NCBI GenBank assembly: GCA_001873995.1
Contig: MNVR01000032.1
Location: forward strand, 1 to 64,000
Length of the DNA stretch: 64,000 bases
Reading direction: 5' to 3'
From: Candidatus Phelpsiimicrobium noxiivivens
GTDB lineage: Bacteria > Omnitrophota > Gorgyraeia > Velamenicoccales > Velamenicoccaceae
Within the stretch, counting starts at the first letter, position 1. Every line of letters begins with the position of its first letter. This document shows positions 2 to 22,533 of the stretch, piece after piece. The position numbers and the translations under genes were made by a program. The notes under the pieces are model-generated. The model was not told the DNA's origin. It searched no databases and saw only the letters and a program-made list of their open reading frames with translations.

Positions 2-3000
2 AGCAGCCATCGTTCCGGCTTCGTTAAGGAGAATTGCCCGCGTGTCGTCCGCTTTTTCTCTGAGCACAAGATCGCGGATAAGAACGGGCAATCTAATATT
101 TTGAACGCGGCGTTGGTCATGATCCATTTTGAGGATCAGAAGCATAGTTCATCTCCTATGCTCATCGCTTCCAGCCTGGTCAGGGAGACATCCCATGACC
201 GGATGGAAGCTGTTATCGACGTGTGGCGCGGATACAGGCTGGCCGGAGAGCGGATGACCATGAAGGAAGTCTTGCTGCGCACGGCCTTTCATTTTGCCGC
301 GGAAGCAACACCGCAGGATTTGGAGGCGGCTTTGGGGCTTGCGGAAAAAACCGTGTATCTGCTGGGAGACGAATGGAGCATCCTGGCGGCTTCGCTGGCC
401 TTTGCGCATTCCGACAGCATCGAGGGGGAGTTTAAACGCAGATTGACCGGCAATTTTTATGCGCTGGGGTTGAACAACATGCGGTATATTGATCAATCGG
501 TCATCGCTGTTGAGAATATTCTCACGCTGACGGAACAAGCCCGGAAAGGGATCAAGGTTCAGGAACAAAGTTGCGGGCATATCAGGCGTTTGATTGGGAT
601 TTTAGATGAGGTCGGAGTTTTGGAGAAGGTCGCCTTGGATCAACCGAGGGCGGCGTTATTTTATTATGTGATCGCCTCATTTTTTCAGAGGCATACTATT
701 TCCGAAATTCATGAAAAGCTTAGAGCGATCGGACGTCAATCTTTGTTTGAATATTATTTTGATAATACCGGATGGAAACCAGACCACTTGAATAAACTCG
801 CTCTTCACGGGCGGGCAGGGATGTTTTCTTCCAGGAATATTCATGACGGGGTTGAAGCCGCCAGACAAGCGATGGATCGGGCGGTGGAGGAGATTTTGCC
901 GAATGATTTCGGGCCGCTTCATTTAAAGACGCCTGGCGAAGTTTACATTTGGCTGGCATTTAATTCAGGGAAGAAGCAAGTGGTTATGGAAAGATTAGCG
1001 CGGCCCGTTAAGTTTATCATTCAGATTCCTGTTGCCGGAGCAAAAGCCAGAGAGGCAGTGATCAGTGTCAACTGTAAAGCCGACCGGATCGGACTTCTTC
1101 ATGACATAACCGCGGTGCTGAAGGCCGCTCAGGTGAATATTAAAACGATTGTAACCAGGGGGAGGAAGGTCAGGATCGCCATCGGGCCTGCCATCCCATT
1201 GTCAGGCGTGATGGCCATGATGGATATTTTTTCCGGGAATTACGATGTCCATTTGACCGTGAGAGAAACCGGACGGAAAAAAGGATCTTCTTCGGCCCCT
1301 GTGGAAGAACCGGAATCTTCGCAGGGGGAGGGTCAGAGTGCTGCTGTTCCGGGCAGTGGTTCCAGCCCCATCCGGCAAACAGTCCGTGACCGGTTTTCGG
1401 AAATGAGGCTTTCGGCTTTGATCTTGAAGTATCTGGGCAGGGAACGAGCAGGGGATTTAATGAACCGTTTGATTGGGGCGCCCGGCCTTAAATTTGTAAC
1501 ATTTCTTGTGTTTACAGCGGCATTGTTCAGGAAAAATATCCGGCCTAAAGCGCGGCGTATCCGGTATTTCTTCCTGTCGATCGCGGGCCTCATTGCCATG
1601 TTTGATTTGCCGAGTACTAAAGAATGGAAGTTTCCGGATGTTCAGGCGGCGGAACTGGAGATCCCGGTTGAAAAAGCGGTTGTCTTGGAACAAAGGGCCG
1701 CTGAGTTAACGGGTTATCCGCTGCAGATGGAGGTTGATATAGAACGGTTTTCATCGCCTGAAGAATTGCGTGCGATCCGGTTTTCCAAGAGGCAGCCTTA
1801 TGTTGTCCGTCAATTGGAAGGCCGGCCGATTTATTATTTCGGGTTTTTTGACCGGCATATTCAGGGCGGGATGCTGGGCCGTATACAGATCTTTGTCGAG
1901 GTTAGGCCCGGGCAACTGGCGGATGAAAAGGAACTGATGGATTTGCACGGCGGAGTCAGGGGGCATGACTACCGCCTCTTAGACATCGCCCGGTTCTTCA
2001 CAGAGGCCTCAAGACAAAATATTTCTCTGAATATTCTAGAAATACGTCTGAAAAAAGAACTCCTGGCCGGCGGATTGCTTAAGAAGACCAGTCTCGGTTA
2101 TCAAGCCACGCAAGTTGCCGCCTTGATTAGCACGGTGCAGGGGGAGAAACTTGCTGTGATCGAGCATGAATTGATCCATGCCGCATATTTTACGGAGCCG
2201 TTGCTTGCGGACGCGTATGGACGTTTGTGGGATAGGCTCACGTCCGAAGAGCAGGCTCGGGTTACGCGTATTCTATTGGTTTTCAGTGATTATGATTTTA
2301 ACAATGATCACGATCTTTTGGTCAGGGAATTTATTGCGTATTTTCAAAATCCCGACGCCTTATTGATGCCGTATCTTCGGTTGTATGGGAGGTACCTGCC
2401 GTTTTCTTTTAAAGGGAGCTCCTTGGACAAGATCAAGGATTTGTACGGAAAGGACGGGGATCTTCGGCCTGAAGTAGTTGCCTGGATTGAGACTCTGGGA
2501 GAGAAGGTTGCTGCGGTCGAAAGGGCCTTTCGGCTTGATCAGAAAATCCCGGGTGGCGTCTCCAGCCCGGTTTTCACGCCTTTGCCGTTGATGGCCCCTG
2601 TTTTAGTCAGGACGGTTTTCGGTACATCGTCTCTCAGATATATCCTTCGGGGAGAAGAATCTCGCGATCCGGGAGACCTCGATGGAAGTTCACCGGTCAA
2701 TATAAAACTACCCTTTGGGGTCGCTCAGACCTTCCGTGGCTGGTTTGTCGATGCCGATCCTCTTGCTGATAATGGCGCAAGGGTAGTTTTGAAAATAAAA
2801 AGGGCAGATGTATCAGGTTCGCCCGCTAAGATAGATCGGAACGATTATAAGGCAAAAGAAAGGGGTGTAGGATGGTCAACTGCAAACTTCAGTTCAGTTT
2901 CTTCTTCGCGCGGTCAGACGGCGCCCTTTGTTGCTCTGCCTATGATGCCGCGCGCCGCGACTGCTTTGCCTATTGCATCCAGCCTGACGGGACGGTCCAC

Positions 3001-6000
3001 GAGCGCTGCGAATCATATCCGCTCAGCGAGTGGAAATATTTACCCGCAGCAGAGGCTGATATCGTCCGCGACCTCGCAGTCCGTTCCCAGCGCCTCATCC
3101 CCAATTACAGGGTGTAATGAAAAAGATCAGATGCAGCGCAGGATCGTCATTCCTATACGCATCGGCGCCAGCAAGGCGCAGATTTACAAGACCGTCAACA
3201 AGACAATGATCGAAGATGGCATGGCCTCATTTGGCTTGCGTTCCTCCAGCAGCCCTGTTTCAAACAACCTTATTACAGTTGTATCGGAGAAGGCTAAGTT
3301 TATCAGTAACAAGAGGTTGCCATTGGTTCTTGAAACGCGTCCTTTTGCCAAAGGCGAAGAAGTTCCGTTTGAAGGCCGCAGCGAAAGGGTTGTCTATGCA
3401 GAAGAGGGCGCAATAAAGGTTAGGTTAGCCGATGGCAAGGAAGTGGTTTTGGATCAAGGAGCCCTTTTTAAAACATATTTGGGAACAAAACTCTTCGCGC
3501 AGCAGGATTCTTTCGTGGCTATTGTCAGCGAAACACTGGATAATGATCTCGTTAAGCACGCCCTGGAAGCTGTTGCTTACATTGATGCCGAGATAGGTTG
3601 TCGCCAGGCCTCTATCCCGATCTTTGATTTTGTCCCAAAAATGTTTGAGTCGTCGTTGATTAATATCATCCGAAATGACATTTCCACAGATCAGGTGGCG
3701 GCCATGGAGATCGGCGCAGGGGACGGCTGGTTTGCATCCAAGATCAGGGCAGCGCTCCGCAGCGCTGGATTTGACGTCCGCCTGATTGCCGTTGAAAAAG
3801 ACGGGGCTATGGTGCAAAAAGCAGAAGAGCGGCATATCATCGCCGCCCACATGGATGTGGCTGAAGCTGTGTCGGCCTATTCGCCAAAATCCCAAGATAT
3901 TATTTTTATCAATGCACCGTGGCATCTGCACCAAATGCTTAGAGCCGCAGCTAAGCTTATCAAAGATAACGGCCTTGTTATCATTCGCCTGGATAGGGAA
4001 GGAGAAACAAATCGGCAGCTTGATACGGCAGCGATCAGACGTTCCTCCGATGAAGAAAGAAGGCCTATTGAGGTTTTAGAATATCTGCCGAGTAACTATC
4101 CGCATCGCTTTTGGCTCCTGGAAGAATATCCTAACGCCAATGGCCTCATTATTGTGGGGTCCGTTTCTTCGAAAAAGACTTCTTCCAGCCCGATATCGCC
4201 CGCAGAGGAGCTTGTCAAAAGAGTTATAACTGAGACAGAACAAAATTATGGGCGAGAGGACATAGAAGTTTTGAAAGAAGCGATGTATCTGGCGCAAGAT
4301 CTGTATCGCGCCAAGGAATTTGCATCTAAAGAAACATATTTAAATCATGCCCTTAAAGTAGCGCAGGTCTTGATCGAATGGCGCGCTGCGATAGAAGTAG
4401 TTCTGGCAGCGGTTTTGCACAAGGCCGGGAGGGATGCACTTGATCAGGCTCTTAGCGAAGAATCTCTGAGCGGGGGCTGGGTTTTAAAAAATAAAGATCT
4501 GGAAAAAATTAAGGCGATGGTTCTAAGGCTGCAGAGGATTGTTGACAGGTGGCCATATCTCGGCGGCTATATCCGTTATGTCAAAGGTAGCCGCACAGTT
4601 CAGAATTATCAGAACGCCATTATCCTCATGACCGAAGAGGATCCATTGACGCTTCTTTTGGTCTTTGCCGATAAGCTCCAGGCTGTTTCAAAAGAGGCAA
4701 CGAAAGAGGAGAGGGATTATCGCTATAACGAGCTCCAACACATTTTTATTCCTTTGGCAGCGCGTTTGAATGCTTATGATCTTTTCGAAGGATTACGTAA
4801 TAAGGCTTTTGAGTTGCATGATCCCGAGAAATTCCAGGATGCCAGGCAGATGCGCAGGAATACCTGGGGTCTTTCGTACGGAGCAATGAAAGAAGTGCTT
4901 GGCAAGGTTGTTGAAGAGTTATCCGCGGGGCTGGAGGAGAAGAACATTGCAGCTAAGGTCGAAAGCCGTGTCAAGACGACTTATAGTATCCATGAGAAGA
5001 TTGAGAGTGACAGGCGCCCAGTTTTCACCCAGGCCAAAGAGCTTAATGACGTCATGGGCATTCGTATAATCACGGATCAGACGGATGATGCTTTAACCTT
5101 TGCTACGAATTGGCTCAACGAGAGACAGTACCCGTACGAAGTCGTTCCTAAGTTAAAGTGGGAAAAAGGGTATGAGGCTGTGCATGTGCGCTTCCTGACA
5201 GAAGAGGCGCCGGATAAGGAGCTCTTGCCGTACGAGATCATGATCATGGCGCCTGCGGAGTATAAGAAGTATTTGAGCGGCGGGTCTCAGGAGCGCTATG
5301 TGCCGCCTGCCAAAGCCCATTGGATTTACAAAGGTATTGGTTTTGATATTGTTGGCACCGAGCAGGTTTTTGATGCTGATGCTATTGAGCTGGGAGCTGA
5401 TTTTGAGGAAAATTATGCTCATTTATATCATAGCCTGGAGAAAAAGGCTTTTGTGATGTACCTGGAAAAGACGTGGCGCGGCATGGAAATGCGAGTCATC
5501 GATTTACTCAAAGGTTCGTATCCGGTAAATTTAGCGGCGCTGCCGGAGATCAATAAGTTGAACGTTTCTTATGCTGGATTTTTTGACATCAAGATAGGTA
5601 AGAGCGGTGAGGAACCGGTCAAAGAGTTTGCCCGCGAAGAGCTGGATGAAATGTATCCTTTGGCTACAGGGGCGATCATTACGCTAAAAACATCCGGCGT
5701 TGCTTTAAACAAAGAGAGATTCGAAGCGATAGAGGCCATAATCCAACCAAGCCGCGCCAAATTGGTCTTGCGGAGCCTTTTTGAGAACAAGATGAATAAA
5801 TGGATCAGCGATGGCAAGAAGGCCGTGGTTGAACATGTCGGCCGGGTGAGCAAACATTGTTATCCGTTCATGAATGTCTTTGCCAAATCTAAAGGGCTGC
5901 AGGATGTCAATGAGCTCTACGCTGCCATAGGCACCGGTGTTATTGCGTTGGCGGACCTCTTGGTTTTTTACGAGGCGCAGACCAAGCGGGAAGCCATTGT

Positions 6001-9000
6001 TGTGGCGTCGGACCGTAAAGAGATCGTGTCCGATATTTCAGACGCTCTTCTTAAGTTGGACGGCCGTATTACCGACTTAAACGAAGAAGCGGAACACGAG
6101 CAAGACGGCCAACGCATGATTAGTTTGAGGCTTAAGCTCAAGTTTGAATGCGGCATAGACGAGCAGTCTCTTAAAAAACTTCTTCTTGATCCAAAGAAAA
6201 TCCCCGGCGTAAAGAAAGTGATCATTAAATCTTCTTCTTCGCCCATAGATGAAGATTTCGGGTTTGATGATTTCAGTTATGTCAAGCAGGAGAGGGACAC
6301 GCTGCTGGAAATGCTTTTGGGGCGATTAAAGTCAGAGAAATATAGAGAGAGGATTGAGGCCATGCAGTTACTCAGGGGTTTGAAGATCCTCGATCAAAGG
6401 ATATTGTCTGGCATGATGGAACTGATAAATAATAAGCAGACGACCATGTCTGATATGCAAATACTTGAACAGGCTTTTGAGATAAATAAAGCCATAAGGA
6501 CTTTATTCCACTATACCCCAAAGATTTCTGAGATGTACACGGTTATGGATATTGATAAGTTCTCTCCCATTGCCGAATACTATACTGGAAGCATAGACGC
6601 AAAGTTATTAAGCGATTTCAATGTTTTCCTTGGCGCCGTAAAGGCTGGGATACTGGAGGATCACCGTTCTCTTTTCAAAAACATCGTCTATCCGTACGGC
6701 TGCGAAATATTCTCCGCCAGGCTTAAGCCTTTGGTTGGCCGGTATGCGTTTGAAGGCGAGCTGGTGAAAACCCCATATGATAAAGTATTAGCTGCATTGC
6801 TTGGCATAGATTTTCACGCTTACTGGGTTATTTCGCTGGGGTCGCTGGACCTTATCTTTGATGTGGCAGCAGACCAGTTCGCAAAGATCGGCCGCGAAAA
6901 ATATGCTCAGATAGCGTCTGTTGTCATCCCGTTTGGTATTGTGCGCAATTCGCCGCAAAGATTTCCTATGTACAGTGCTGTTTTGCCTGGTGAGGAGATA
7001 TTAAATAGCGCGGGTGGTTCTTTCAGCCCTGTGGGTGATGGGGAAGAAGCCGGCAAAGGTAGCGGGGAGCGGGATGCCTTGAAGATCTATCTAAAGGAAA
7101 TCAGGGTTTTTGAATTACTTGGGGCAGACGAAGAAGAGAGGCTTAGTCGGATAATTTTGTCTTCTGAGCCGCCGAGCGATGACTATATGCAGGCCAGGGA
7201 GGTGCTGATCCAGTCGAACTTGAGACTTGTTGTGTCCATAGCGCGTAAGAATGAATGGAAGGGTTCAGGGGCCGGGCTGGACCTGCTCGACCTGATCCAG
7301 ACCGGGAATAAGATGCTCATACGCGTGGCTGAGAAGTTTGAGGCATCTAAGGGCAAGTTCTCTAACTACGCAGGCCGATGTATTGAATATGCGCTTAAGC
7401 GCGCCATAGGGGAGGAGCCGCAGTTGCCCGCAGACAAGTTACACAAGTTTTACGCCCTAAAAAAAGAATTAGGCGGGATGCCTACAGCACAGGAGGCGGC
7501 GAATAAATTTGGCGTAACAGATTACGAGTCCGGCCTTATATTAATGGCTAATCAGTATGACTCCCTGGAAAGGCCTGTGGGCGAAGACGGCGACAGCGCG
7601 TTAGGGGATTTCATCGCAGGGTCTGACGCCAGGACAGAAGACTTAGGCGGCATGGAATACAACGAATCCATAATGCTTTTGAAACGTTACATGGACAAGA
7701 TCGGGATAATAAAGCGGCATCAGGATATGTTCCTTATGCGCGAATATACCGAAGGAGAGCCGCCTTCGTTCAAAGATATTGGCATAGTTTTTAAAGATGC
7801 CGTAGGCGAGCGCCAGATCTCAGGCGTGAGGGTCAGGGCTATCATAGGATACGTTAAAAATAAGGTCCGCGATAATATGGAATCTGACGGAATAAGGGCG
7901 CTGGGTCGCGAGCAGATGGTTGAACTTTTTAAGGCGCATGGCATAAAAGACGGCGTTTCTTTGCTAATTACCGCTATTTTGCAGGCAGATATCGGCCATA
8001 ATTTGAGTTCAAGCCCGGTGGAAGAATGGAATGAAAATCTAAAAGAAATAAAGATAACTTCGCAGCGTCGAAGAGTTTTCCTTAAGAGCGTGATGGAATT
8101 TTTAAGAGAGTATAAGCCCTTGCGCAAAGATTTGGACCGGTTGGTTAAAGAATATGGCGATCTTTTGAGCAAGTTTGACCCAAAGAGAACGAATGCCGCA
8201 AGGCAGACTAAAGCCAAGGGTCAGGAATTGCGAGGCCTTTCGGGAAAATTTTTAGATATTATAGGATATCAGCCTTCAACTGCACTTCTGGCGCAAAAGC
8301 GGGTCTTTTCTCCATCAAGGGAATATTCTAATGTTCTTAGGTTTATTTTCGTCCACAACTCTATGTCCGTCTCCAATCTTCTCTTAGGACAGATATACCT
8401 TGCTAAAGTTTTGATAGACAAAGATCATTTAACCAGGAAACAAGCCGCTGATCTGTTTGTAGCGAAAGTGTTTAGCATCGCAAATCTATACATGCAGCGC
8501 TACTCTCAAGAGCTCGGTCATTGGCTCGATTTTATATTTAAGGGAGAGCTTTATAATGGAACGTATTTGTTCAAGATCTTTTCAGAGGGCCGGTTAGAGA
8601 TGCTGATCGCCAGTCTTTTGCATCTGACAGAGTTTGATCTGGAGCTTTTGCGTTTTGGCCTTGGATTTTCCCAGGACGAGGCCCAAAAATTCCACCCCGT
8701 AGGTGGAATTTATAGCGCCTTGCACGACATCGGCAAGCGCCATGTTGATATCGATCTTTTTGATTATTCGGCGGAATTGTTCGAAAAGGATCTACAGACC
8801 AATAATTCCAATGCGGGTTTGGATAATTCCAATGCGGGTTTGGAAGGGTTAAACGGCAGTGGCGCTTCCTCGCCGGTTAAGAATTTTTCCGGCTTGGCCC
8901 AGAATAAGAAGGTTTATCTCCTCTTGGAAAAGGCCGCTGATTTTATAAGGGCAAACAGATTAAATAATGCGCAGGCGTTGTTAGACGATATTTCAAGAGC

Positions 9001-10747
9001 TGACTTGAATAATTTTAATATGGTCGTGGTTTATTATCTGAGGGCCGAAATTTCGATACTAAAAGACACTCTATATTTAGCCGAGGAATATTATAAAGAG
9101 AGCCGTAAATATTTATACCTGGCAGAGAGTAATACAAGTTTTAACAATGGCGATGCCATAGTGTATACACTCGCTAAGTTTGATGAGCGCATCTGGCTTG
9201 CCCTGGCAGGAATAAGGAGGATGCGCGCAGAACAGATGGAAGCTAAATTCATGTCCGCAGGATTGTTCAGCAGCGCAGATATTGTTGCGGCGCTTAGGGA
9301 AATCAGGGTAAGCAATAGTTATATAGATGGATCCAAAAGGCCGATGGAAGGGCTCAATCCATCTTCTCCAATAATTGAACGTCCCTGGTGGCCTGTTCTT
9401 TCGGTAGAAGAATACCTATTGAAACTTGATTTTCTGGTAAACCTGAATCGCAAAATAAAGAGCTGGCCTGCCTCCTCGGCAGTAAGTATAAAACGAAATA
9501 CAAAAGATGCCAAGAAAAATTCTCTTGCCACCTCGTCGATCATGGGAGCTGGCTTTAAGGTTGACAGGAGTCTATTGTATGAGCTCTGGCCGGAGAAAAA
9601 AGGATTTATAGACAAACTAAAAGCGGTTTATGAAGAAGTTAGCCGGGAGGACGATTTTGAAATTTTACCCTTTGAAAGGCTGCCCAACTCCTATGTTATA
9701 CACAGGATTATTAACTCGGCAAGTATTCTAGAGGATGAAGATGAATATCTTGAGAGATATAGAGAAGCAATGAGACAGCGGACAACAAAAGAAAAGGAAT
9801 TGATTAAAAGGAGCAGAATGCCTTCTTATGCGGAAGGATCAACCCTGGGTTCATTAGATAGGGACCTCAGTATATTTTTTACCGAAGGCTTAAGGATGCC
9901 TTATTATTCTTTCGGCGCAAGAGTGCTGCTTAATCCAAATTTAAAGGGAGTATTTTTACTTCGGCAGAGATTGATAATCGCGCCGGGTGATGAGCATGAT
10001 GGTTTGTTTCATGAAGGCATTCATTTTGACAGCGAAGGATTTTCCTTGGAATGTATGGATGAGGGCTTCGTGCAGTTTATATGGCTAAAGTATGGGATGG
10101 CAAGAACAGAGTTTAAGCCTGATCTGTCCCGTCCGGTTATTAAAGAGGCATTTGATGCTGGAGGCATAGAATATGCGTATTTTGTTACAAGAGAATGCGG
10201 CTATAATTGTCGGCTGTCTTATAGCGGCGAAATTGCCTTTGCCTGCGGCTTGGTTAAACTCATAAGCGAAAAAGACTTATTGGACGCATTTATCAGGGGA
10301 AAATATTCGCCCCATATGAAAATGGTATTTGATAGGGACCTGTGGAAGACAATAGATAATTTTGAAACATACTTTTTTGGCAAGCAGTATTATGAAAATA
10401 AAGTGGCGATGATAAAGCAGATAGACGCAAAGATCAAGGCCAAGGTTGAGGAGGTTAATTCAGCGAGTAAAACCTCTTCGCCGGTTTTTCGCATCGCAGA
10501 TCTTATGCCTGCTAAAGCTTCATCTGAGAGTTACAGGAAGGTTTTTGGCGAGATCCTGCATTGTTTTCAGGTAGACGGCAGAAAAAATTATGATATCGGA
10601 ACGCCAAAGGCCGCGTTAGACTTATTGGCGCAAGAATTCACTGGAAAGGAGGCGGGGCGTTACAAAAGTAGCCTGATCCAAAATGTAACAGGCAAGGGCG
10701 CGATCGGTGAAATTCCAGTTCATTTGTTTAATATTGGCGTTAAGTAA
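2..10747 (+). CDS. Giant multidomain polyprotein-like protein (left-truncated)
   Basis: The frame is open from base 2, so the gene begins left of the window; TTG at 101 is only a nominal start. Residues here are numbered from 101. Domains seen in order: ACT-like (about 318-387); two hydrophobic stretches (about 448-495) and a zinc-peptidase motif HELIH at 689-693; Ser/Ala-rich region (about 900-1000); Rossmann methyltransferase-like region with EIGAGDGW near 1202; RelA/SpoT-like segment (1366-2043); helical unknown (2050-2306); sigma-70-like segment (2312-2635); HD-like LHDIGKRHVD near 2875; helical-repeat segment (2927-3087); second HEGIH at 3304-3308; short C-terminal piece. The segments are separated by S-S-S-P-V/I spacers whose prolines fall at 19, 400, 423, 823, 865, 1001, 1052, 1364, 2048, 2310, 2639, 2925, 3090 and 3461. 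The domain calls come from motifs; that the spacers are processing sites is my inference. No single family of this length is known to me. Confidence 0.85.
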   Translation, partial: SSHRSGFVKENCPRVVRFFSEHKIADKNGQSNILNAALVMIHFEDQKHSSSPMLIASSLVRETSHDRMEAVIDVWRGYRLAGERMTMKEVLLRTAFHFAAEATPQDLEAALGLAEKTVYLLGDEWSILAASLAFAHSDSIEGEFKRRLTGNFYALGLNNMRYIDQSVIAVENILTLTEQARKGIKVQEQSCGHIRRLIGILDEVGVLEKVALDQPRAALFYYVIASFFQRHTISEIHEKLRAIGRQSLFEYYFDNTGWKPDHLNKLALHGRAGMFSSRNIHDGVEAARQAMDRAVEEILPNDFGPLHLKTPGEVYIWLAFNSGKKQVVMERLARPVKFIIQIPVAGAKAREAVISVNCKADRIGLLHDITAVLKAAQVNIKTIVTRGRKVRIAIGPAIPLSGVMAMMDIFSGNYDVHLTVRETGRKKGSSSAPVEEPESSQGEGQSAAVPGSGSSPIRQTVRDRFSEMRLSALILKYLGRERAGDLMNRLIGAPGLKFVTFLVFTAALFRKNIRPKARRIRYFFLSIAGLIAMFDLPSTKEWKFPDVQAAELEIPVEKAVVLEQRAAELTGYPLQMEVDIERFSSPEELRAIRFSKRQPYVVRQLEGRPIYYFGFFDRHIQGGMLGRIQIFVEVRPGQLADEKELMDLHGGVRGHDYRLLDIARFFTEASRQNISLNILEIRLKKELLAGGLLKKTSLGYQATQVAALISTVQGEKLAVIEHELIHAAYFTEPLLADAYGRLWDRLTSEEQARVTRILLVFSDYDFNNDHDLLVREFIAYFQNPDALLMPYLRLYGRYLPFSFKGSSLDKIKDLYGKDGDLRPEVVAWIETLGEKVAAVERAFRLDQKIPGGVSSPVFTPLPLMAPVLVRTVFGTSSLRYILRGEESRDPGDLDGSSPVNIKLPFGVAQTFRGWFVDADPLADNGARVVLKIKRADVSGSPAKIDRNDYKAKERGVGWSTANFSSVSSSRGQTAPFVALPMMPRAATALPIASSLTGRSTSAANHIRSASGNIYPQQRLISSATSQSVPSASSPITGCNEKDQMQRRIVIPIRIGASKAQIYKTVNKTMIEDGMASFGLRSSSSPVSNNLITVVSEKAKFISNKRLPLVLETRPFAKGEEVPFEGRSERVVYAEEGAIKVRLADGKEVVLDQGALFKTYLGTKLFAQQDSFVAIVSETLDNDLVKHALEAVAYIDAEIGCRQASIPIFDFVPKMFESSLINIIRNDISTDQVAAMEIGAGDGWFASKIRAALRSAGFDVRLIAVEKDGAMVQKAEERHIIAAHMDVAEAVSAYSPKSQDIIFINAPWHLHQMLRAAAKLIKDNGLVIIRLDREGETNRQLDTAAIRRSSDEERRPIEVLEYLPSNYPHRFWLLEEYPNANGLIIVGSVSSKKTSSSPISPAEELVKRVITETEQNYGREDIEVLKEAMYLAQDLYRAKEFASKETYLNHALKVAQVLIEWRAAIEVVLAAVLHKAGRDALDQALSEESLSGGWVLKNKDLEKIKAMVLRLQRIVDRWPYLGGYIRYVKGSRTVQNYQNAIILMTEEDPLTLLLVFADKLQAVSKEATKEERDYRYNELQHIFIPLAARLNAYDLFEGLRNKAFELHDPEKFQDARQMRRNTWGLSYGAMKEVLGKVVEELSAGLEEKNIAAKVESRVKTTYSIHEKIESDRRPVFTQAKELNDVMGIRIITDQTDDALTFATNWLNERQYPYEVVPKLKWEKGYEAVHVRFLTEEAPDKELLPYEIMIMAPAEYKKYLSGGSQERYVPPAKAHWIYKGIGFDIVGTEQVFDADAIELGADFEENYAHLYHSLEKKAFVMYLEKTWRGMEMRVIDLLKGSYPVNLAALPEINKLNVSYAGFFDIKIGKSGEEPVKEFAREELDEMYPLATGAIITLKTSGVALNKERFEAIEAIIQPSRAKLVLRSLFENKMNKWISDGKKAVVEHVGRVSKHCYPFMNVFAKSKGLQDVNELYAAIGTGVIALADLLVFYEAQTKREAIVVASDRKEIVSDISDALLKLDGRITDLNEEAEHEQDGQRMISLRLKLKFECGIDEQSLKKLLLDPKKIPGVKKVIIKSSSSPIDEDFGFDDFSYVKQERDTLLEMLLGRLKSEKYRERIEAMQLLRGLKILDQRILSGMMELINNKQTTMSDMQILEQAFEINKAIRTLFHYTPKISEMYTVMDIDKFSPIAEYYTGSIDAKLLSDFNVFLGAVKAGILEDHRSLFKNIVYPYGCEIFSARLKPLVGRYAFEGELVKTPYDKVLAALLGIDFHAYWVISLGSLDLIFDVAADQFAKIGREKYAQIASVVIPFGIVRNSPQRFPMYSAVLPGEEILNSAGGSFSPVGDGEEAGKGSGERDALKIYLKEIRVFELLGADEEERLSRIILSSEPPSDDYMQAREVLIQSNLRLVVSIARKNEWKGSGAGLDLLDLIQTGNKMLIRVAEKFEASKGKFSNYAGRCIEYALKRAIGEEPQLPADKLHKFYALKKELGGMPTAQEAANKFGVTDYESGLILMANQYDSLERPVGEDGDSALGDFIAGSDARTEDLGGMEYNESIMLLKRYMDKIGIIKRHQDMFLMREYTEGEPPSFKDIGIVFKDAVGERQISGVRVRAIIGYVKNKVRDNMESDGIRALGREQMVELFKAHGIKDGVSLLITAILQADIGHNLSSSPVEEWNENLKEIKITSQRRRVFLKSVMEFLREYKPLRKDLDRLVKEYGDLLSKFDPKRTNAARQTKAKGQELRGLSGKFLDIIGYQPSTALLAQKRVFSPSREYSNVLRFIFVHNSMSVSNLLLGQIYLAKVLIDKDHLTRKQAADLFVAKVFSIANLYMQRYSQELGHWLDFIFKGELYNGTYLFKIFSEGRLEMLIASLLHLTEFDLELLRFGLGFSQDEAQKFHPVGGIYSALHDIGKRHVDIDLFDYSAELFEKDLQTNNSNAGLDNSNAGLEGLNGSGASSPVKNFSGLAQNKKVYLLLEKAADFIRANRLNNAQALLDDISRADLNNFNMVVVYYLRAEISILKDTLYLAEEYYKESRKYLYLAESNTSFNNGDAIVYTLAKFDERIWLALAGIRRMRAEQMEAKFMSAGLFSSADIVAALREIRVSNSYIDGSKRPMEGLNPSSPIIERPWWPVLSVEEYLLKLDFLVNLNRKIKSWPASSAVSIKRNTKDAKKNSLATSSIMGAGFKVDRSLLYELWPEKKGFIDKLKAVYEEVSREDDFEILPFERLPNSYVIHRIINSASILEDEDEYLERYREAMRQRTTKEKELIKRSRMPSYAEGSTLGSLDRDLSIFFTEGLRMPYYSFGARVLLNPNLKGVFLLRQRLIIAPGDEHDGLFHEGIHFDSEGFSLECMDEGFVQFIWLKYGMARTEFKPDLSRPVIKEAFDAGGIEYAYFVTRECGYNCRLSYSGEIAFACGLVKLISEKDLLDAFIRGKYSPHMKMVFDRDLWKTIDNFETYFFGKQYYENKVAMIKQIDAKIKAKVEEVNSASKTSSPVFRIADLMPAKASSESYRKVFGEILHCFQVDGRKNYDIGTPKAALDLLAQEFTGKEAGRYKSSLIQNVTGKGAIGEIPVHLFNIGVK
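2123..2390 (+). other. Zinc metallopeptidase-like motif region inside the giant ORF
   Basis: The frame reads HELIH (residues 689-693) and about 45 residues later LVREFIAYF, which could supply a third, glutamate ligand as in gluzincin-type peptidases. It lies between the spacers at residues 423 and 823, after two hydrophobic stretches, so this segment may be membrane anchored. Activity is inferred from the motif alone. Confidence 0.55.
4196..6229 (+). other. RelA/SpoT-like (p)ppGpp synthetase segment inside the giant ORF
   Basis: It lies between the spacers at prolines 1364 and 2048. The N-terminal HD-like part keeps a first His (1416) and a second His (1440), but the Asp of the HD pair reads Lys (HK at 1440-1441), so hydrolysis of (p)ppGpp is probably lost. 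The synthetase part keeps recognisable blocks: RVKTTYSIHEKIE from about 1623, ELNDVMGIRI, KGYEAVH and AKAHWIYKG. A TGS-like stretch (PLATGAIITLKTS) and an ACT-like tail follow, which is the normal RSH domain order. It is about 680 residues, close to a full-length RSH protein. Confidence 0.75.
7034..8005 (+). other. Sigma-70-like segment inside the giant ORF
   Basis: The segment between prolines 2310 and 2639 carries the sigma-70 order of blocks. Region 1.2-like DALKIYLKEI is followed by region 2 (SNLRLVVSIARK ... LDLLDLIQTGN ... GKFSNYA) at about 2374-2437. Region 3 reads GGMPTAQEAANKFGV and then SLERPVGEDGDSALGDFI. A divergent region 4-like helical stretch covers about 2525-2590. The -10-binding aromatic cluster of region 2.4 is poor (RCIEYALKRAI), so promoter recognition may be altered or lost. 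The family assignment is strong; function in this fused setting is unknown. Confidence 0.75.
8802..8843 (+). repeat. 21-bp tandem duplication inside the giant ORF
   Basis: Two exact 21-base units (ATAATTCCAATGCGGGTTTGG) at 8802-8822 and 8823-8843 encode the repeated peptide NSNAGL next to the spacer at proline 2925. The period is a multiple of three, so the frame is kept. Confidence 0.9.
9374..10474 (+). other. Second HExxH peptidase-like segment inside the giant ORF
   Basis: Between the spacers at prolines 3090 and 3461 the frame contains HEGIH (3304-3308), followed about 15 residues later by MDEGFVQF, which offers a glutamate third ligand. The rest of the segment is helical and unfamiliar to me. 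It is the second candidate protease in the same product. Confidence 0.45.
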
Positions 10748-10773
10748 AGTATAATGTATTAGGGGGTGTGCGT

Positions 10774-11157
10774 ATGGTTGAAGTAAAAAGAAGAGAGCTT
10801 GAAATCTTGCATGGAAATCCTTCATCAGATAATGATAACAGGATCTTTTGTCGTTTTGCTTTACACGATATGCCCGTAAGATTTAAAGACTTAAAGGTTG
10901 GAGAGAAAGGATCCGGCGTCTGTAAAGACATAAGCGGAGGAGGCATTAGCGCCGAGTTTGGCCGCGAGGTCAAGCCTAGGACGCCGTTGGAAATGTGGGT
11001 GGACCTGCCGGATGGTTTTGAACCTTTGCATCTGTTAGGTAAGGTTGTATGGTCAGATCTGCTGGGCGCGTCTTGCCGCGTAGGTATTGCTTTTGACAGG
11101 CCACGGCTTATGGGATTATCGCGTATATTAAAGTTTGGAACACCGGAGGCGATATGA
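10774..11157 (+). CDS. PilZ-domain protein (first of a pair)
   Basis: This is a small protein with a PilZ-type c-di-GMP-binding fold. NRIFCRF supplies an Arg-x3-4-Arg-like element and CKDISGGGI matches the D-x-S-x-x-G signature. The C-terminal strands (KVVWSD, CRVGIAF) are typical of the barrel. I chose ATG 10774 because AGGGGG sits seven bases upstream; a GTG at 10768 is also in frame. It starts 27 bases after the giant ORF and overlaps the next PilZ gene by ATGA. Single-domain PilZ proteins usually act as c-di-GMP effectors on motility, secretion or polysaccharide synthesis; the partner here is unknown. Confidence 0.8.
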   Translation: MVEVKRRELEILHGNPSSDNDNRIFCRFALHDMPVRFKDLKVGEKGSGVCKDISGGGISAEFGREVKPRTPLEMWVDLPDGFEPLHLLGKVVWSDLLGASCRVGIAFDRPRLMGLSRILKFGTPEAI

Positions 11158-11534
11158 ATGAAAACAGGAAGGCGGTTCGGTGGAACATAATCTTGCCAGT
11201 TCGTTATGTGGGCTTATTCAGAAATACGGAAAGTTCAGCTATGGCCAAAGACTTAAGCGTGCTTGGAGCAAGGCTTGCCATGGTAGAGAGGCACAAGCCG
11301 GGTGATAAGCTTGAGATGATGCTGGATATGCCCGCGGGAGAGAGCAGTAATACTATGTGTGTTGACGCGGATGTGGTATGGCAGAGGCCTGCAAGCGCTT
11401 TAGAAGAGGGATGTAACTATATGGCAGGAGTAGTATTTAGGAATATTATGGATTGCTATAGGAAGGGCATTGCTGAATACGTATCCATTAATCATCCTCA
11501 GGAGTTCAGGCAGCATTGGTGGGATGGGGTATAG
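11154..11534 (+). CDS. PilZ-domain protein (second of a pair)
   Basis: This is the second PilZ-type protein, 126 residues, overlapping the first by ATGA and therefore probably translationally coupled. RKAVRWNIILPVRY gives the Arg-rich element, AKDLSVLGARL matches D-x-S-x-x-G, and DVVWQ is the following strand. It is divergent from its neighbour, so the pair looks like old paralogues rather than a recent duplication. c-di-GMP binding is inferred from the motifs. Confidence 0.8.
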   Translation: MNENRKAVRWNIILPVRYVGLFRNTESSAMAKDLSVLGARLAMVERHKPGDKLEMMLDMPAGESSNTMCVDADVVWQRPASALEEGCNYMAGVVFRNIMDCYRKGIAEYVSINHPQEFRQHWWDGV

Positions 11535-11811
11535 CGGCAGAGGACAGAAAATAGAGGACAGAATACAGTTTTTCACTGACATCTGACCTCTGATACCTGA
11601 CTTCTAAAAGATGGTTTTTTGAATAATTATTGCTTGACCTCTAGGGGTCAATATGTTAGACTTTTGAAATCTATTTTCTATGGATATCAATGGGCTATGT
11701 AAAAAATACACACCCCTTGTTTAATCACTTCAAAAATTTCCTCTGGATATTTCTGAAGTAAACTTCAGGGTTGATTTTGTAAAGAAAAACAACTTAAAAA
11801 ATGCAAAATTA
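11535..11811 (+). promoter_or_regulatory. Intergenic regulatory region with two palindromes and a promoter-like element
   Basis: The 277-base gap upstream of the glycan locus holds TTGACCTCTAGGGGTCAA at 11634-11651 (6-bp arms) and a perfect palindrome CTGAAGTAAACTTCAG at 11753-11768. A promoter-like pair follows: TTGATT 11771-11776, 18-bp spacer, TAAAAA 11795-11800. The stretch 11763-11796 matches 18301-18334 at 27 of 34 bases. The palindromes are plausible operators for the LacI or ROK regulator further down; that link is inferred. Confidence 0.5.
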
Positions 11812-14259
11812 ATGAAATACGGACATTTTTCTTCTGACGGAACTGAATTTATTATTAATTATCCTGAAACTCCCACCCCTTGGATCAATTATCTGAGTAA
11901 TGAAAAATATTGCGCTATCATCTCGCAGACAGCTGGCGGCTACAGTTTCTTAAAAGATTGCCGTACTGACAGGATATTAAGATGGGCGCCTGATTATAAA
12001 AATTTTGACCGGCCCGGGCGTTATATTTATGTCCGGGAACTCGCGGGCAGGCAAACTCGTGAACACAAGAACCCAAAGGTCTGGTCGCTGACCTATCAGC
12101 CTTTGCGCGTTGAGCCTGACTTTTATGAATGCCGTCATGGTTTAGGTTATACTACGATCGCCTCCAAAAACAATTCTGTTAAGTCGCAAGTCACATATTT
12201 TCTTCCCGTTGACGACGATTGCGAACTCTGGTTTGTTTCGCTTACCAACGACTCAAAAAAAGAAAAGAAACTGGAGCTTTATCCATATGTGGAGTGGCTC
12301 ATCGGAGATTACCACGAAGAACTCCGTTACCGCAATATAATGAACCTATATAACAGGATGTGGTTTGACGAGGCGCACAACCTGATATTCGGCTGGAAGA
12401 CCGCGTTCTGGCAAGGCATGAATATTAAAGAATTCAAGAATTATTCTTTTTTTGCAACCAGCCTTGAAGTTAAAGGCTACGCAACGCGCAAAGAGGAGTT
12501 TTTAGGCCGCTATAATACAGAGGCCAACCCCGACGCTATTTTAAACGGCAGATTTAAGAATTCGCCTCTCTGTTCCGGAGAAGACGGCATAGGGTGTTTT
12601 AAACATGTTGTTAAGTTAGGCCCTAAAGAGACAAAAGAATTCGTAGTTATTTTAGGCGCGGCTGAAGGCCAGAATAATGCCGTTAAACTTGTTAACAAAT
12701 ATAGAGACTTGGATGTTGTCAAAAAGGCCCTTGAAGATACTAAGGCCCTGTGGAAATCTCGCATTGTCGGAAACGTCACCATAAAGACACCGGATAATGA
12801 CTTTGACACTATGGTCAATGTCTGGGTGAAGTATCAGGTTTATATGTGTAATCTATGGTCGCGCTCTCCGTCTTTCTATCACGAGGGGTCCGGCGGCAGG
12901 GGCTATCGCGATTCCTGCCAGGACTCTGAGTCCATCGCTTCTATTAATTCCGGGCTAACGCGTAAAAGGATATTGCAGTTAGCTTCGCTTATACGTAAAG
13001 ATGGCACATCAGCGCCGGGTTGGTCGGATACTGCCGGGCCTGGTCAACACCGCCCTAATAAAGACCATCAGATATGGCTTACCGCGACAGTGCGCGCGTA
13101 TATCCAGGAAACAGGGGATAAAGATATTTTAAAAGAATATGCCCCTTATTTAAAAGACAAATGGGTAGGCGGCTGGGAGACAGACCCTGAGCACAAAGGC
13201 GGCCCTAAAGCCGAAGGAGAGGGCACCCTTTTTGAGCACCTTGAAAAAAATCTTAATTTTTGTTTTAACGATGCAGGGGAACGCGGCCTGCCTAAAATAG
13301 GCCACGCTGATTGGAATGACGCCATTGACGCCGCGGGTAAAAAGCATAAAGGCGAAAGTGTCTGGCTTGCCCAGGCCCTGGTTCGTTCTCAGAAATATTT
13401 TGCAGAGTTGGCCGAGCTCGTTGGCGATAAGGAAAAGGCGAAAGAGTTTTTGGATAAGGCAAAGACCATGTCAGAGCGTGTAAACGCGATAGCGTGGGAC
13501 GGTGATTGGTATGCGCGCGGATTTACGGATGATGGCGTCCCTTACGGCGTCAAGGCGTATGATGAAGGAAAGATATTCATTATGAGCCAGGCATGGGCTA
13601 TTCTTTCTGGTATCGCCGAAGGCGAGCGCTTGCAGAAGGTTTTAAAGTCTTGTGACAAATATTTAGATGGGTCTCACGGCATAGCCATGTTCTATCCGGC
13701 ATTTACTAAGTTTCGCCCTGAATTGGGCCGTATCAGCATGTTTTCCGAAGGCACAAAAGAGAACGCGGCTATTTTTTGCCATGCCGCGCATTTCCTCATC
13801 GTTGCCTATTGTATGGCAGGCCGGGGGACTAAAGCCTATGAATCTATGTCTAAGATAATGCCTAACAAACAGAAAAACTATGACCTATATAAAGCAGAGC
13901 CTTATGTCTATGCCGAGTATCTCGTAGGCCCTGAGAATCCTTATCGTTATGGCGAAGGCCAGTTTACCTGGATAACAGGCGCGTCGGGCTGGGCCTTTAT
14001 GGCAGCTACAGAATGGCTTCTGGGCGTGCGCCGCGATTACGAAGGCCTGCGTATAGACCCATGTGTGCCATCTCACTGGAAGAAGTGCTCTATAAGGCGC
14101 CCTTTTAGAGGAGATGTGTACGAAGTAGAAATTGAAAATCCCAATGGGGTTGAAAAAGGCGTAAAAGAGGTATATGTGGATAATAAGCCGATAGAGGGTA
14201 ATTTAGTCAAGGTTGTAGGCGATGGCAAGGCGCATAATGTCCGCGTCGTAATGGGTTAA
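11812..14259 (+). CDS. GH94-family glycoside phosphorylase (cellobiose-phosphorylase-like)
   Basis: GH94 enzymes split beta-linked disaccharides or oligosaccharides with phosphate, giving a sugar 1-phosphate. The 815 residues match the family length. An N-terminal beta-sandwich is followed by an (alpha/alpha)6 barrel with GYRDSCQD and GLPKIGHADWNDAID; Asp500 of ADWND aligns with the catalytic acid of cellobiose phosphorylases. There is no signal peptide, so it is cytosolic. No Shine-Dalgarno precedes the ATG, and the predicted promoter would leave a leader of only a few bases. A GPH sugar symporter follows, so imported oligosaccharide is probably phosphorolysed here. The exact substrate (cello-, laminari- or chito-oligosaccharide) cannot be set from sequence alone. 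Confidence 0.88.
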   Translation: MKYGHFSSDGTEFIINYPETPTPWINYLSNEKYCAIISQTAGGYSFLKDCRTDRILRWAPDYKNFDRPGRYIYVRELAGRQTREHKNPKVWSLTYQPLRVEPDFYECRHGLGYTTIASKNNSVKSQVTYFLPVDDDCELWFVSLTNDSKKEKKLELYPYVEWLIGDYHEELRYRNIMNLYNRMWFDEAHNLIFGWKTAFWQGMNIKEFKNYSFFATSLEVKGYATRKEEFLGRYNTEANPDAILNGRFKNSPLCSGEDGIGCFKHVVKLGPKETKEFVVILGAAEGQNNAVKLVNKYRDLDVVKKALEDTKALWKSRIVGNVTIKTPDNDFDTMVNVWVKYQVYMCNLWSRSPSFYHEGSGGRGYRDSCQDSESIASINSGLTRKRILQLASLIRKDGTSAPGWSDTAGPGQHRPNKDHQIWLTATVRAYIQETGDKDILKEYAPYLKDKWVGGWETDPEHKGGPKAEGEGTLFEHLEKNLNFCFNDAGERGLPKIGHADWNDAIDAAGKKHKGESVWLAQALVRSQKYFAELAELVGDKEKAKEFLDKAKTMSERVNAIAWDGDWYARGFTDDGVPYGVKAYDEGKIFIMSQAWAILSGIAEGERLQKVLKSCDKYLDGSHGIAMFYPAFTKFRPELGRISMFSEGTKENAAIFCHAAHFLIVAYCMAGRGTKAYESMSKIMPNKQKNYDLYKAEPYVYAEYLVGPENPYRYGEGQFTWITGASGWAFMAATEWLLGVRRDYEGLRIDPCVPSHWKKCSIRRPFRGDVYEVEIENPNGVEKGVKEVYVDNKPIEGNLVKVVGDGKAHNVRVVMG

Positions 14260-14287
14260 TGAGACAAATTGAGAGGGGGGTTATTTA

Positions 14288-15790
14288 ATGGAACAGGCAC
14301 CCGATAAAGCACAGCATCATGTTACAGCTCGCGCGGATCGCATTTCTTTTTTTCAAAAAGCCGCCTACAGCATAGGATCGCTTGTTAATCAATTTCAGGC
14401 CGCCGCTATAGGCGCGCTAGTCATTGTTTTAAATCTCGGATTAGGCATGAACCCCGCCTTAGTCGGCCTTATTGGAGCCATCCCCCGCCTTATTGATGCT
14501 TTTTCAGATCCTTTAATAGGTTACAGCTCAGATAATACCCGGACTAGATTTGGCCGCCGCAGGCCATGGATATTCTTTGGAGCTATTGCTTCAGGTGTTT
14601 TATTCGCCCTTATGTTCCAGCTCTATAAAGGGCATACTGAAAGTTACTATTTCTGGTATTTCTTAGTGGTTCAATGTTTCTTTGTCGTTGCTTTTGCCTG
14701 TTATTCTATTCCCTGGATCGCTCTTGGGTATGAAATGACGCCCGATTATCATGAGCGGACACGGTTGCAGGGTTTTAGTAATTTCTTCGCTCAAATTGCC
14801 TGGCTTGTAGCTCCCTGGTTTTTCGCGATCATGAATAATAAGGCAATGTTCACGGATATTGTCCATGGAGCGCGGTCGCTCTCTATTATAGTAGGTGTCT
14901 TTATCGTGGTTGGCGGTATCCTTCCAGCTATTTTGAATAAGGAAATGTTTGGTAATTTACCAAGGCCTGAAAAAGTAAAGGGCCATTTCAATGTGATCAA
15001 GGACCTTTTAAGCAATTGTGCCACGTCCTTCAAATGCAAGCCATATGTTAAGCTTATCGCGGTAACATTCCTGATCTTCAACGGGTTTATGTTGGCTAGC
15101 GCTTTCACGTTGTATGTCATTGTCTACTATGTCTATGGCGGCGATTGGGGGAAAGGTGGAACATTACTTGGATGGTTTGGGACCTTAAGTTCAGTCTGTA
15201 CTCTTTGCGCCATCTCTTTGACAACATGGATATCCACAAAGATCGGAAAGCGAAAGACTTTTTTGATCACCATGTGTATCGCGATGATCGGCTATGTCTT
15301 GAAATGGGTAGGGTATAATCCTCATAATCCCTATTTATTGTTGATCGCGGCTCCCTTTTTAGCGTTTCATTTGGGAGCGTTATTCACAATGGTTCCTTCT
15401 ATGGTCGCGGATGTTTGCGACCTGGATGAATTACAAACCGGCACGCGCAGAGAAGGCATGTTTAGCGGTATTTATTGGTGGATACAAAAATTGGGCATGG
15501 CCGGGGCATCTGTTCTCTCCGGGGTTCTCTTAGTTTGGACCGGTTTCAATGTTGAATTAGGCGCTAATCAATCAGTCCACACTTTATTATTTATGAGGCT
15601 CTTTGATGTAGGTATTCCAATTGTGACTTCTCTAATCGCTATTTTTATTATCGCGACTTTTGATATTTCAGAAGCTAAGGCATATGACATCCGCGCGCAG
15701 GTTGAACGCAGAAGGGCGGATAGGCGAAGCGAAGAAAGGCGAGTGGAAGAAGAAAGGCGAGGTAGAGAAAGGCGAGGAGAAGAAAAGTGA
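14288..15790 (+). CDS. GPH-family sugar:cation symporter
   Basis: This is a 500-residue, roughly twelve-helix transporter of the glycoside-pentoside-hexuronide family in the MFS. SDPLIGYSSDNT and RFGRRRPW (about residues 86-93) form the conserved loop between helices 2 and 3. A good ribosome site (GAGGGGGG) precedes ATG 14288. It follows the GH94 gene by 28 bases and overlaps the next gene by GTGA, so it likely imports the glycoside that GH94 cleaves. Oddity: the last 30 or so residues are an Arg/Glu-rich tail encoded by a degenerate GAAAGGCGAG micro-repeat (about 15703-15787) not typical of the family. Confidence 0.88.
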   Translation: MEQAPDKAQHHVTARADRISFFQKAAYSIGSLVNQFQAAAIGALVIVLNLGLGMNPALVGLIGAIPRLIDAFSDPLIGYSSDNTRTRFGRRRPWIFFGAIASGVLFALMFQLYKGHTESYYFWYFLVVQCFFVVAFACYSIPWIALGYEMTPDYHERTRLQGFSNFFAQIAWLVAPWFFAIMNNKAMFTDIVHGARSLSIIVGVFIVVGGILPAILNKEMFGNLPRPEKVKGHFNVIKDLLSNCATSFKCKPYVKLIAVTFLIFNGFMLASAFTLYVIVYYVYGGDWGKGGTLLGWFGTLSSVCTLCAISLTTWISTKIGKRKTFLITMCIAMIGYVLKWVGYNPHNPYLLLIAAPFLAFHLGALFTMVPSMVADVCDLDELQTGTRREGMFSGIYWWIQKLGMAGASVLSGVLLVWTGFNVELGANQSVHTLLFMRLFDVGIPIVTSLIAIFIIATFDISEAKAYDIRAQVERRRADRRSEERRVEEERRGRERRGEEK

Positions 15791-18237: not shown

Positions 18238-18243
18238 TCCCTT

Positions 18244-18301
18244 GCCAACCCACTTGTGAATTTTAGCACGACAATCTTGTGCAAAAATTTACTACGTTGG
18301 C
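18244..18301 (+). other. Imperfect hairpin between glycosidase and beta-sandwich genes
   Basis: Outer arms GCCAAC/GTTGGC (18244-18249, 18296-18301) and inner arms AATTTTAGCAC/GTGCAAAAATT (18259-18269, 18279-18289) form a nested imperfect stem. No T tract follows, so it is more likely an mRNA end or processing structure than a standard terminator. Confidence 0.4.
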
Positions 18302-18338
18302 TTCGGGATTAACTTTGTAAGGAAAAATCACTTACAAT
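18301..18338 (+). promoter_or_regulatory. Promoter-like element shared with 11763-11796
   Basis: TTAACT (18309-18314), 18-bp spacer, TACAAT (18333-18338) lies upstream of the secreted beta-sandwich gene. Bases 18301-18334 match 11763-11796 at 27 of 34 positions with no gaps, which points to a common promoter or operator in the glycan locus. Confidence 0.5.
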
Positions 18339-18361
18339 ATACCAAAGTTAAGGAGGGCACC

Positions 18362-19540
18362 ATGAAAAAGTTAACAGTAGTTATGGCGGCAATGGCGATA
18401 AGTTTCGCTTGTTGCCTGGCGTATGCGGAGGACGCAGCGCCTGCGGCCGTTAATGTCAAGCCCGCGGCAAGCACAAAGGATTTCGCTGTTTATTCTGACG
18501 GCAGATCTCCTGACAATCACTTTATCCCATCGGGTTTTATGGGCGACTATGGTGATCTGTCAATGGATGACAAGTATATGGGCGAGCCGCATTCGGGAAC
18601 GACCTCTATCAAGTTCATCTACACGGCGAAGCGGTCGCAGAACCAGGGCTGGGCTGGTATTTATTGGCAGAATCCGGCCAATAACTGGGGTTCCAAAAAA
18701 GGCGGTTTTGACCTGACTGGTTTGAACAAACTCACCTTTTGGGTGCGCGGAGAAAAAGGCGGAGAGATCATTGACAAGTTTAACGTAGGCGGCATCAAGG
18801 GGACTTATCCTGATACTACGGAAGTCTCTATCGGGCCAGTGGAATTAACAAGTTCGTGGCAGCAATGCACCGTAAATCTGGTAGGCAAGGACATTTCTTA
18901 CATTAATGGCGCTTTGAACTGGGTCGTTACCGCGGATTCCAATCCGGCAGGAATGACTTTCTATATTGATGACATAAGGTTTGAATATGACCCTCTGTTA
19001 AAAGAGGCTGGCAAGAAGATACAGGAAGTGCCGTTTTACGTCTACGCGGATAGGGGTTCTATCATGAACCATTTTATTCCATCTGGATGGATGGGCGACT
19101 TCAGCGATCTAAAGATCGATACAGGCTCGGTTGAGAATCCTTACTTTGGTAAGACCTGTTTAAAGATCACTTATCTGGATAAGGCCTCTAACGGCGCGCG
19201 TTGGGCCGGTATATACTGGCAGAATCCTCCCAATAATTGGGGCGGCGTGGATGGCGGTTTTGATCTATCTCACGCCACGAAAGTGACCTTCTGGGCAAGG
19301 GGTGAAAAAGGCGGCGAGCGCGTGGAAGAGTTCAAGATAGGCGGCATTATGGGCGAGTATTCGGATTCAGACACAGCCGGTATCGGCCCTGTGGTGTTAG
19401 AAAAGGATTGGAAGCAATACACGATAGACCTTAACGGCAAAGACCTTTCCTATATTATAGGAGGTTTTGCCTGGGCGTCTAACCTGGATGTAAATCCTGA
19501 CGGCGCTGTGTTCTATTTAGATGAAATAAAGTACGAATAA
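18362..19540 (+). CDS. Secreted tandem beta-sandwich protein, carbohydrate-binding-like
   Basis: A clear signal peptide (MKKLTVVMAAMAISFACC... cut near AYA-ED) is followed by two similar domains of about 170 residues (roughly 37-215 and 222-392). Each repeat contains HFIPSGxMGD, WAGIYWQNPxNNWG, GGFDL, FWxRGEKGGE and ends in a strand such as FYxDxI. Repeated Trp and Tyr residues suggest sugar stacking, and the fold resembles CBM11-like or other jelly-roll modules; no catalytic residues are evident. It has a strong ribosome site (AAGGAGGG) and lies between two glycosidases, so a role in binding the polymer at the cell surface or periplasm is likely but inferred. Confidence 0.7.
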   Translation: MKKLTVVMAAMAISFACCLAYAEDAAPAAVNVKPAASTKDFAVYSDGRSPDNHFIPSGFMGDYGDLSMDDKYMGEPHSGTTSIKFIYTAKRSQNQGWAGIYWQNPANNWGSKKGGFDLTGLNKLTFWVRGEKGGEIIDKFNVGGIKGTYPDTTEVSIGPVELTSSWQQCTVNLVGKDISYINGALNWVVTADSNPAGMTFYIDDIRFEYDPLLKEAGKKIQEVPFYVYADRGSIMNHFIPSGWMGDFSDLKIDTGSVENPYFGKTCLKITYLDKASNGARWAGIYWQNPPNNWGGVDGGFDLSHATKVTFWARGEKGGERVEEFKIGGIMGEYSDSDTAGIGPVVLEKDWKQYTIDLNGKDLSYIIGGFAWASNLDVNPDGAVFYLDEIKYE

Positions 19541-19568
19541 TTAATTGCGCCCCTGCGCGCCAGCATCT

Positions 19569-19626
19569 CAGCGCCCCAGTGAAAAAATTTTACCGGGGCG
19601 CTGGGGAGCCGGGGCGCTGGGGAGCC
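19569..19626 (+). repeat. Hairpin and 16-bp tandem duplication
   Basis: CAGCGCCCC at 19569-19577 pairs with GGGGCGCTG at 19595-19603. The 16-base unit GGGGCGCTGGGGAGCC occurs twice exactly at 19595-19610 and 19611-19626. There is no T tract, so a simple terminator is unlikely. It lies just before the start of the next gene. Confidence 0.8.
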
Positions 19627-19637
19627 GGATGCGAAGT

Positions 19638-20876: not shown

Positions 20877-20968
20877 TATATAGTTAATAGTAAATAGTTA
20901 ATAGGGGAAGCAGGAGCTGAACAAAGGCTAAAAAGTTTTCCCATATAAACTATAAACGAAGCGCTCAT

Positions 20969-22531: not shown

Positions 22532-22533
22532 CC

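Follow-up and report, generated by a model that had tools for sequence, protein, structure and literature searches.

A giant Omnitrophota reading frame with recurring Ser-Ser-Pro joints between unrelated units, read as the end of a putative processed polyprotein

The giant genes of Candidatus Omnitrophota are among the longest bacterial reading frames, and both the role of their products and the question whether these stay whole are open (PMC10066038, PMC12057145). Published accounts treat each of them as one extracellular protein that forms a coat, acts as an adhesin or serves predation, and note few annotated domains in it (PMC10066038; West-Roberts et al. 2023 preprint via PMC12057145); their post-transcriptional integrity has been called unclear (PMC12057145). 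Within the open-access literature on these giants, a scope outside which the giant-gene preprint and Kizina et al. 2022 lie, we found no paper that reports a joint motif, a polyprotein reading or embedded Tat signals.

The window analysed here, a stretch of 64,000 nucleotides, is the start of contig C9 in a 1.56-Mb, 39-contig genome of a tiny, probably predatory bacterium (C9 and C32 denote contigs of this source genome; G006, G008, G205 and similar handles denote related genomes that were compared). A single frame of 3,581 codons occupies 2..10747 on the plus strand; it is open at the contig start and not complete, the contig end being the start of the window. We propose that this ORF is, with fair probability, the C-terminal part of a chromosomally encoded Omnitrophota polyprotein that would be processed after synthesis. 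The observation that led to this proposal, fourteen SSP-type spacers listed in an earlier note, held for every proline: eleven joints read SSP[VI], one reads SSPM and two are variants. One additional SSP in the ORF, SSPE at about residue 586, is not of joint type. On the assumption of independent residues, composition predicts 0.09 SSP[VI] in the ORF, where 11 are observed, and 1.49 in the 64,788 aa of non-giant ORFs of the same genome, including the rest of the window, where there are none. In an unbiased ranking of 4-mers, SSPV, SSPI and SSSP came out on top in the window ORF and at or near the top in joint-rich relatives. The regular spacing claimed at the outset was too strong a description, as inter-joint distances have a median of 279 residues with an interquartile range of 106-518. 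Nineteen percent of the intervals are shorter than 60 aa, too short for a protein, and some joints lie only 5-20 aa apart.

The joints divide the plus-strand frame as follows, with residues numbered from base 2 (33 above the numbering of the earlier note). After the joint SSPM (P52, 149..160), a unit of residues 53-432 (161..1291) ends in a weak ACT domain (Pfam ACT, E=7e-5, below the Pfam cut-off), followed by the variant joint SAPV within SSSAPV (P433, 1292..1303) and by SSPI (P456, 1361..1372). The next unit, residues 457-855 (1373..2560), is without a Pfam match and carries a hydrophobic stretch and a metallopeptidase-like HELIH (HExxH) motif. It is closed by SSPV (P856, 2561..2572), with a second SSPV (P898, 2687..2698) ahead of a low-complexity unit (2699..3094) whose conservation in the giants of G006 and G007 extends as far as the same SSPITG-like joint. 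SSPI (P1034, 3095..3106) and SSPV (P1085, 3248..3259) follow, the latter of which also opens a block with 73% identity in G006. Residues 1086-1396 (3260..4183) combine this N-terminal block common to G006 with a methyltransferase-like domain (Methyltransf_25, E=4e-4, below cut-off). Between SSPI (P1397, 4184..4195) and SSPI (P2081, 6236..6247) lies a complete RelA/SpoT homologue (4196..6235). Residues 2082-2342 (6248..7021) match no family and precede the second variant joint, FSPV within SFSPV (P2343, 7022..7033), recognised from the sequence. A sigma-70-like unit (7034..8008) extends from there to SSPV (P2672, 8009..8020); across residues 2343-2672, regions 1.2, 2 and 3 match while region 4 does not, and the full set of regions is thus not present. 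Two units without a significant family match, residues 2673-2957 (8021..8866) and 2959-3122 (8879..9361), are separated by SSPV (P2958, 8867..8878) and closed by SSPI (P3123, 9362..9373). The final joint, SSPV (P3494, 10475..10486), bounds a unit of residues 3124-3493 (9374..10474) that has an HEGIH (HExxH) motif and no Pfam match. The HELIH and HEGIH units may be metallopeptidases carried in the chain. For the final 909 aa of the ORF, no homologue was found among 292 genomes of the class, which indicates that these units are lineage-specific or fast-changing.

A profile search returned matches exclusively in Candidatus Omnitrophota records, and gene order connects the ORF to a described giant. 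The single-contig genome G008, which belongs to the same family and measures 1,974,201 bp, holds a frame of 39,687 codons (119 kb) at 29823-148883. The giant ORF of Ca. Velamenicoccus archaeovorus LiM encodes 39,678 aa (PMC10066038), and from this ORF length, the single-contig genome and the shared family we take G008 to be this organism. Directly downstream of the window ORF and outside the putative polyprotein, the PilZ, PilZ and GH94 genes (10768..14259, plus strand) stand in the same order as directly past the G008 giant; identities to the genes past the G008 stop are 58% and 47% for the two PilZ genes, 80% for GH94 and 68% for GH2. This part of the window (11812-25916) is a sugar-use cluster of GH94 phosphorylase, MFS_2 transporter, GH2, GH116 and ROK genes, partly conserved beside the giant in G008. 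The source genome has a second giant ORF, on contig C32, of 9,945 codons (29.8 kb), which runs off the contig end. The beginnings of this ORF and of the G008 giant align (32% over 1,403 columns) and have the FLPEQVAWAVDYN signal peptide in common, and the upstream genes of the two correspond as well. The contig ends of C32 and C9 do not overlap, and the link between them rests on synteny instead: given upstream synteny for C32 and downstream synteny for the window ORF, they most likely represent opposite ends of a single gene with no fewer than 13,526 codons, from which any middle part is missing. Measured against 20 kb, the size above which an Omnitrophota ORF counts as a giant, the G008 frame and the C32 part each exceed the limit, and the window part, cut by the contig end, contributes 10.7 kb. 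Cargo differs between the window ORF and the G008 giant, and the window units have no match in the readable part of the latter, of which about 40 kb reads N.

The same joint recurs in related giants of several families, which span 7,000-57,000 aa and carry it 10-100 times over expectation. Giants of the same family contain 14, 43, 20, 41 and 15 SSP[VI] against fewer than 0.5 expected in each; a 57,099-codon frame of another family (G205) has 97 SSP[VIL] against 2.65 expected; and the G008 giant has 32 SSPA against 0.52, with joints in its roughly 40 kb of N uncounted. We found the joint also in G047, G092, G241, G272, G284, G258 and G021, weakly in some of them. Other giants are joint-poor (G036, G064, G094, G154, G190, G194, G275 and others), which shows that giant ORFs need not carry the joint and come in jointed and unjointed kinds. 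Masked stretches may have inflated the length of long frames elsewhere, such as one of 70,450 codons in G230.

The joint is a short, disordered peptide with the consensus [small/hydrophobic]-Ser-Ser-Pro-[V/I/L/M/A], at which predicted disorder propensity peaks. Within a giant the joints share a dialect, with V preferred in G006, I in G047 and C32, L in G272 and A in G008, and the mutual information between the residue after the proline and the giant is 0.42 against 0.18 +/- 0.01 when permuted, with a weak signal also at control positions. Because the Ser codons at joints mix TCN and AGY and the 30-nt flanks are 26-30% identical, as random sequences are, the joint is conserved as a peptide and not as DNA. 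A DNA pattern for the joint was too degenerate for use genome-wide, its matches being as numerous as those of a reversed control. These properties bear on the possibility that the joints are left over from a DNA insertion element or that internal starts give rise to separately translated units, to which we give hardly any credence. The recurrence of AGCTCGCCGGTG in G007 and G205 would fit an element, but the flanks are without DNA similarity, and a copied element, the stock linker of the earlier note, is disfavoured by the diverse codons and the random flanks despite the intergenic-looking repeats of the G007 giants. Internal starts were rejected, as Shine-Dalgarno-like motifs upstream of joints are rarer than chance (25 against 42.8) and Met is not enriched. 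As for the repeats themselves, G007:C37 (L034-L036) contains translated short repeats, RPPQSMARL, SKLIAHGKE and TKHGEASLSLRPPQ, for example within residues 772-790 and 1034-1090 and from 15521 onward. They resemble intergenic repeat DNA within an open frame and often lie right at joints; AGCTCGCCGGTG is found there repeatedly, as it is in G205.

Joints separate units rather than interrupt them. In four annotated giants, only one of 137 joints falls inside a Pfam envelope, against 14.6 expected, and in this sole case the envelope is that of a Tat-signal model with its start at the joint. The claim that spacers lie between domain-sized units is thereby borne out, and the opposite outcome, spacers equally frequent inside domains, was not what we found. 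Of 314 homologous-block ends, 86 are no more than 15 aa from a joint, against 21.8 +/- 5.5 with rotated joints and a maximum of 45 in 1,000 rotations, although these blocks are not all independent because the RelA/SpoT unit recurs. Joints mark both limits of homologous units whose neighbours differ from giant to giant, and complete units are bounded by the conserved short motif. The Pfam domains of the giants include Dus, Maf, GGDEF, response regulators, histidine kinase ATPase, NUDIX, DnaJ and methyltransferases, as well as alpha-amylase, PHP, SLT transglycosylase, SPOR and a Tse3-like muramidase. The Dus domain of G006 is partial (68-240 of 311), and a full stand-alone copy is encoded elsewhere. 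Given such partial or diverged units, among them the sigma-like unit without region 4, this Dus and a RelA/SpoT unit with its HD lost, not every unit need be functional.

The RelA/SpoT unit (residues 1397-2081) is the clearest example of a protein framed by joints. In most joint-rich giants in which its ends are seen, SSP stands at both bounds, with differing neighbours and across several families; homologues thus retain the same joints, where their loss would have spoken against the spacer. Elsewhere, the homologue is an ORF of about 700-1,000 codons without a joint. The unit corresponds to almost the full length of Rel (profile 5-657 of 665 against chain 82-791 of 797, in two stretches), and Foldseek returned RelA/SpoT. 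AlphaFold predicts the unit with a pLDDT of 82 and places the main disordered stretches at the two joints, both with pLDDT below 50. Of the residues that we take to be catalytic, the hydrolase HD is changed to HK in the window and to HK or HR in every member with the HD region aligned, including Omnitrophota relatives outside giants; the synthetase Asp and Glu are kept in the window and largely kept across members. The unit is hence a diverged member without the full HD and synthetase set, and its hydrolase is presumably dead. It is also the only RelA_SpoT domain found in the source genome (90.9% complete). The sole RelA_SpoT match sits in a giant-type frame in eight joint-type genomes, although that frame has just 1,062 codons in G133.

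Disordered joints between confidently predicted domains are what one would expect of permanent, Ser/Pro-rich flexible linkers that space the enzymes of an uncut scaffold, and such linkers are common in natural fusions. A passive linker, however, needs neither a fixed SSP core nor a genome dialect nor an adjoining Tat signal, and exported and cytosolic units of one uncut chain would span two compartments. We therefore regard a scaffold as unlikely. Of the interpretations offered by the earlier note, we favour cleavage over scaffold, by inference from the Tat signals directly after joints and the genome-specific dialects; the disorder of the joints is a third ground for favouring cutting.

Twin-arginine motifs followed by a hydrophobic stretch were located after SSP in all seven cases in the first giants, at distances of 3-21 residues (seven of seven with a filter that we had loosened once, three of three with the stricter version), although only 5.7% of residues lie within 25 aa of SSP. 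Other dipeptides had no such bias toward joints. One of one Tat signal in the later giant set and three of three in G008 (at 5, 5 and 28 residues) likewise follow SSP, which brings the total in joint-rich giants to 11 of 11 within 28 residues. Homologous copies of one Tat unit in two families are 55-57% identical, and both retain the signal after the joint. A PDB sequence search with it found no match, and a structure search identified an alpha/alpha barrel of the epimerase/glycosidase type. In C32, another Tat signal stands ahead of a muramidase-like domain, and a counterpart exists in G008. Tat signals work only at an N-terminus, and the Tat route exports folded proteins; processing after folding would thus fit. 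A modifying enzyme that recognises the joint, for example by O-glycosylation of Ser-Ser-Pro, would account for the dialects and the peptide-level conservation as well as any trans-acting recogniser could, but it leaves the Tat signals and the unit ends at joints unexplained, and we hold it to be very improbable.

The start of the chain raises another possibility, namely that the whole chain is exported as a coat or adhesin, or delivered to prey, with joints that come into use or are cut only outside the cell, in the manner of multi-effector proteins. Giants open with a conserved Sec signal peptide (FxPEQVAWAxxYN; L027:7229-8488, L066:14595-15854 and G008:C1 from 29823), which suggests that at least the front of the chain would be exported. 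A Peptidase_C39-like domain lies near the chain start in C32 and G021, and muramidase, SLT and glycosidase-like units also suit an extracellular role. Peptides of the V. archaeovorus giant rise upon attachment to prey, and a coat has been proposed (PMC10066038). Internal Tat signals, however, would be useless outside the cell, and eight genomes have their sole RelA/SpoT match in a frame of this type. We judge export of the whole chain improbable. The giant parts of the source genome contain few TM-like segments (3 and 4) and place SLT and muramidase-like units beside units of cytosolic type.

We return to processing inside the cell, which we regard as the probable course: cleavage at the joints would release each unit. 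Translation would yield one chain of many unrelated units, of which at least some are complete proteins, and a trans-acting endoprotease would recognise the joint and cut the folded chain, giving each unit its own N-terminus. Units of cytosolic type (RelA/SpoT, sigma-like, Dus, GGDEF) would stay inside, Tat-tagged glycosidase-like and muramidase-like units would leave already folded by the Tat route, and the N-terminal unit with the Sec signal and C39-like domain would leave by Sec. Closely spaced joints need another explanation, for example successive trimming. In shape, Ser-Ser-Pro followed by a hydrophobic residue is similar to what elastase- or subtilisin-like serine proteases accept at P4-P1. 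Among the joint-type genomes, we found no common protease. An HtrA-type protease is unlikely as the common cutter, as Trypsin_2 is without a match in five of seven joint-type genomes (78-96% complete). The C39-like domain at the chain start is only a candidate for the joint protease; 126 of 292 genomes of the class have PF03412 matches, and the ORFs concerned range over every size up to 45,037 codons. The broader proposal stands at about even chances: that part of the proteome, including the only RelA/SpoT-family protein and several Tat-exported enzymes, is made as a single chromosomally encoded polyprotein, tens of thousands of residues long, which a dedicated protease cuts; the specificity of this protease would co-evolve with all joints of the genome, with cargo exchanged freely.

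Reading one class of giants as jointed polyproteins provides a parts list for each of them and helps to explain why earlier descriptions recorded few annotated domains. If the joint is a cutting site, these giants would be bacterial polyproteins rather than single surface proteins, and processed chromosomal polyproteins of such scale would constitute a new bacterial way to express and sort proteins. Because V. archaeovorus proteome data exist (PXD025008, as cited in PMC12583861), the question is testable now.

Among known systems, viral polyproteins likewise string complete proteins with different targets into a long chain, and one class of short site bounds each of them; the giants differ in being encoded on a bacterial chromosome, in being far longer (to 57,099 codons) and in unit content that varies by species, and no protease has been found for them. 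MARTX-type multi-effector proteins also are single secreted chains with exchangeable effector units that are released by proteolysis, whereas the giants have no identified repeat arms or autoprocessing domain and contain many units of cytosolic type, some units having their own Tat signals. NRPS and PKS megasynthases are very long modular enzymes too, but the giants are without their repeated catalytic module logic and have unrelated enzymes as units. The giant ORFs of the Omnitrophota, as in V. archaeovorus LiM, are the same gene class, and the window ORF is most likely the 3' end of a syntenic counterpart.
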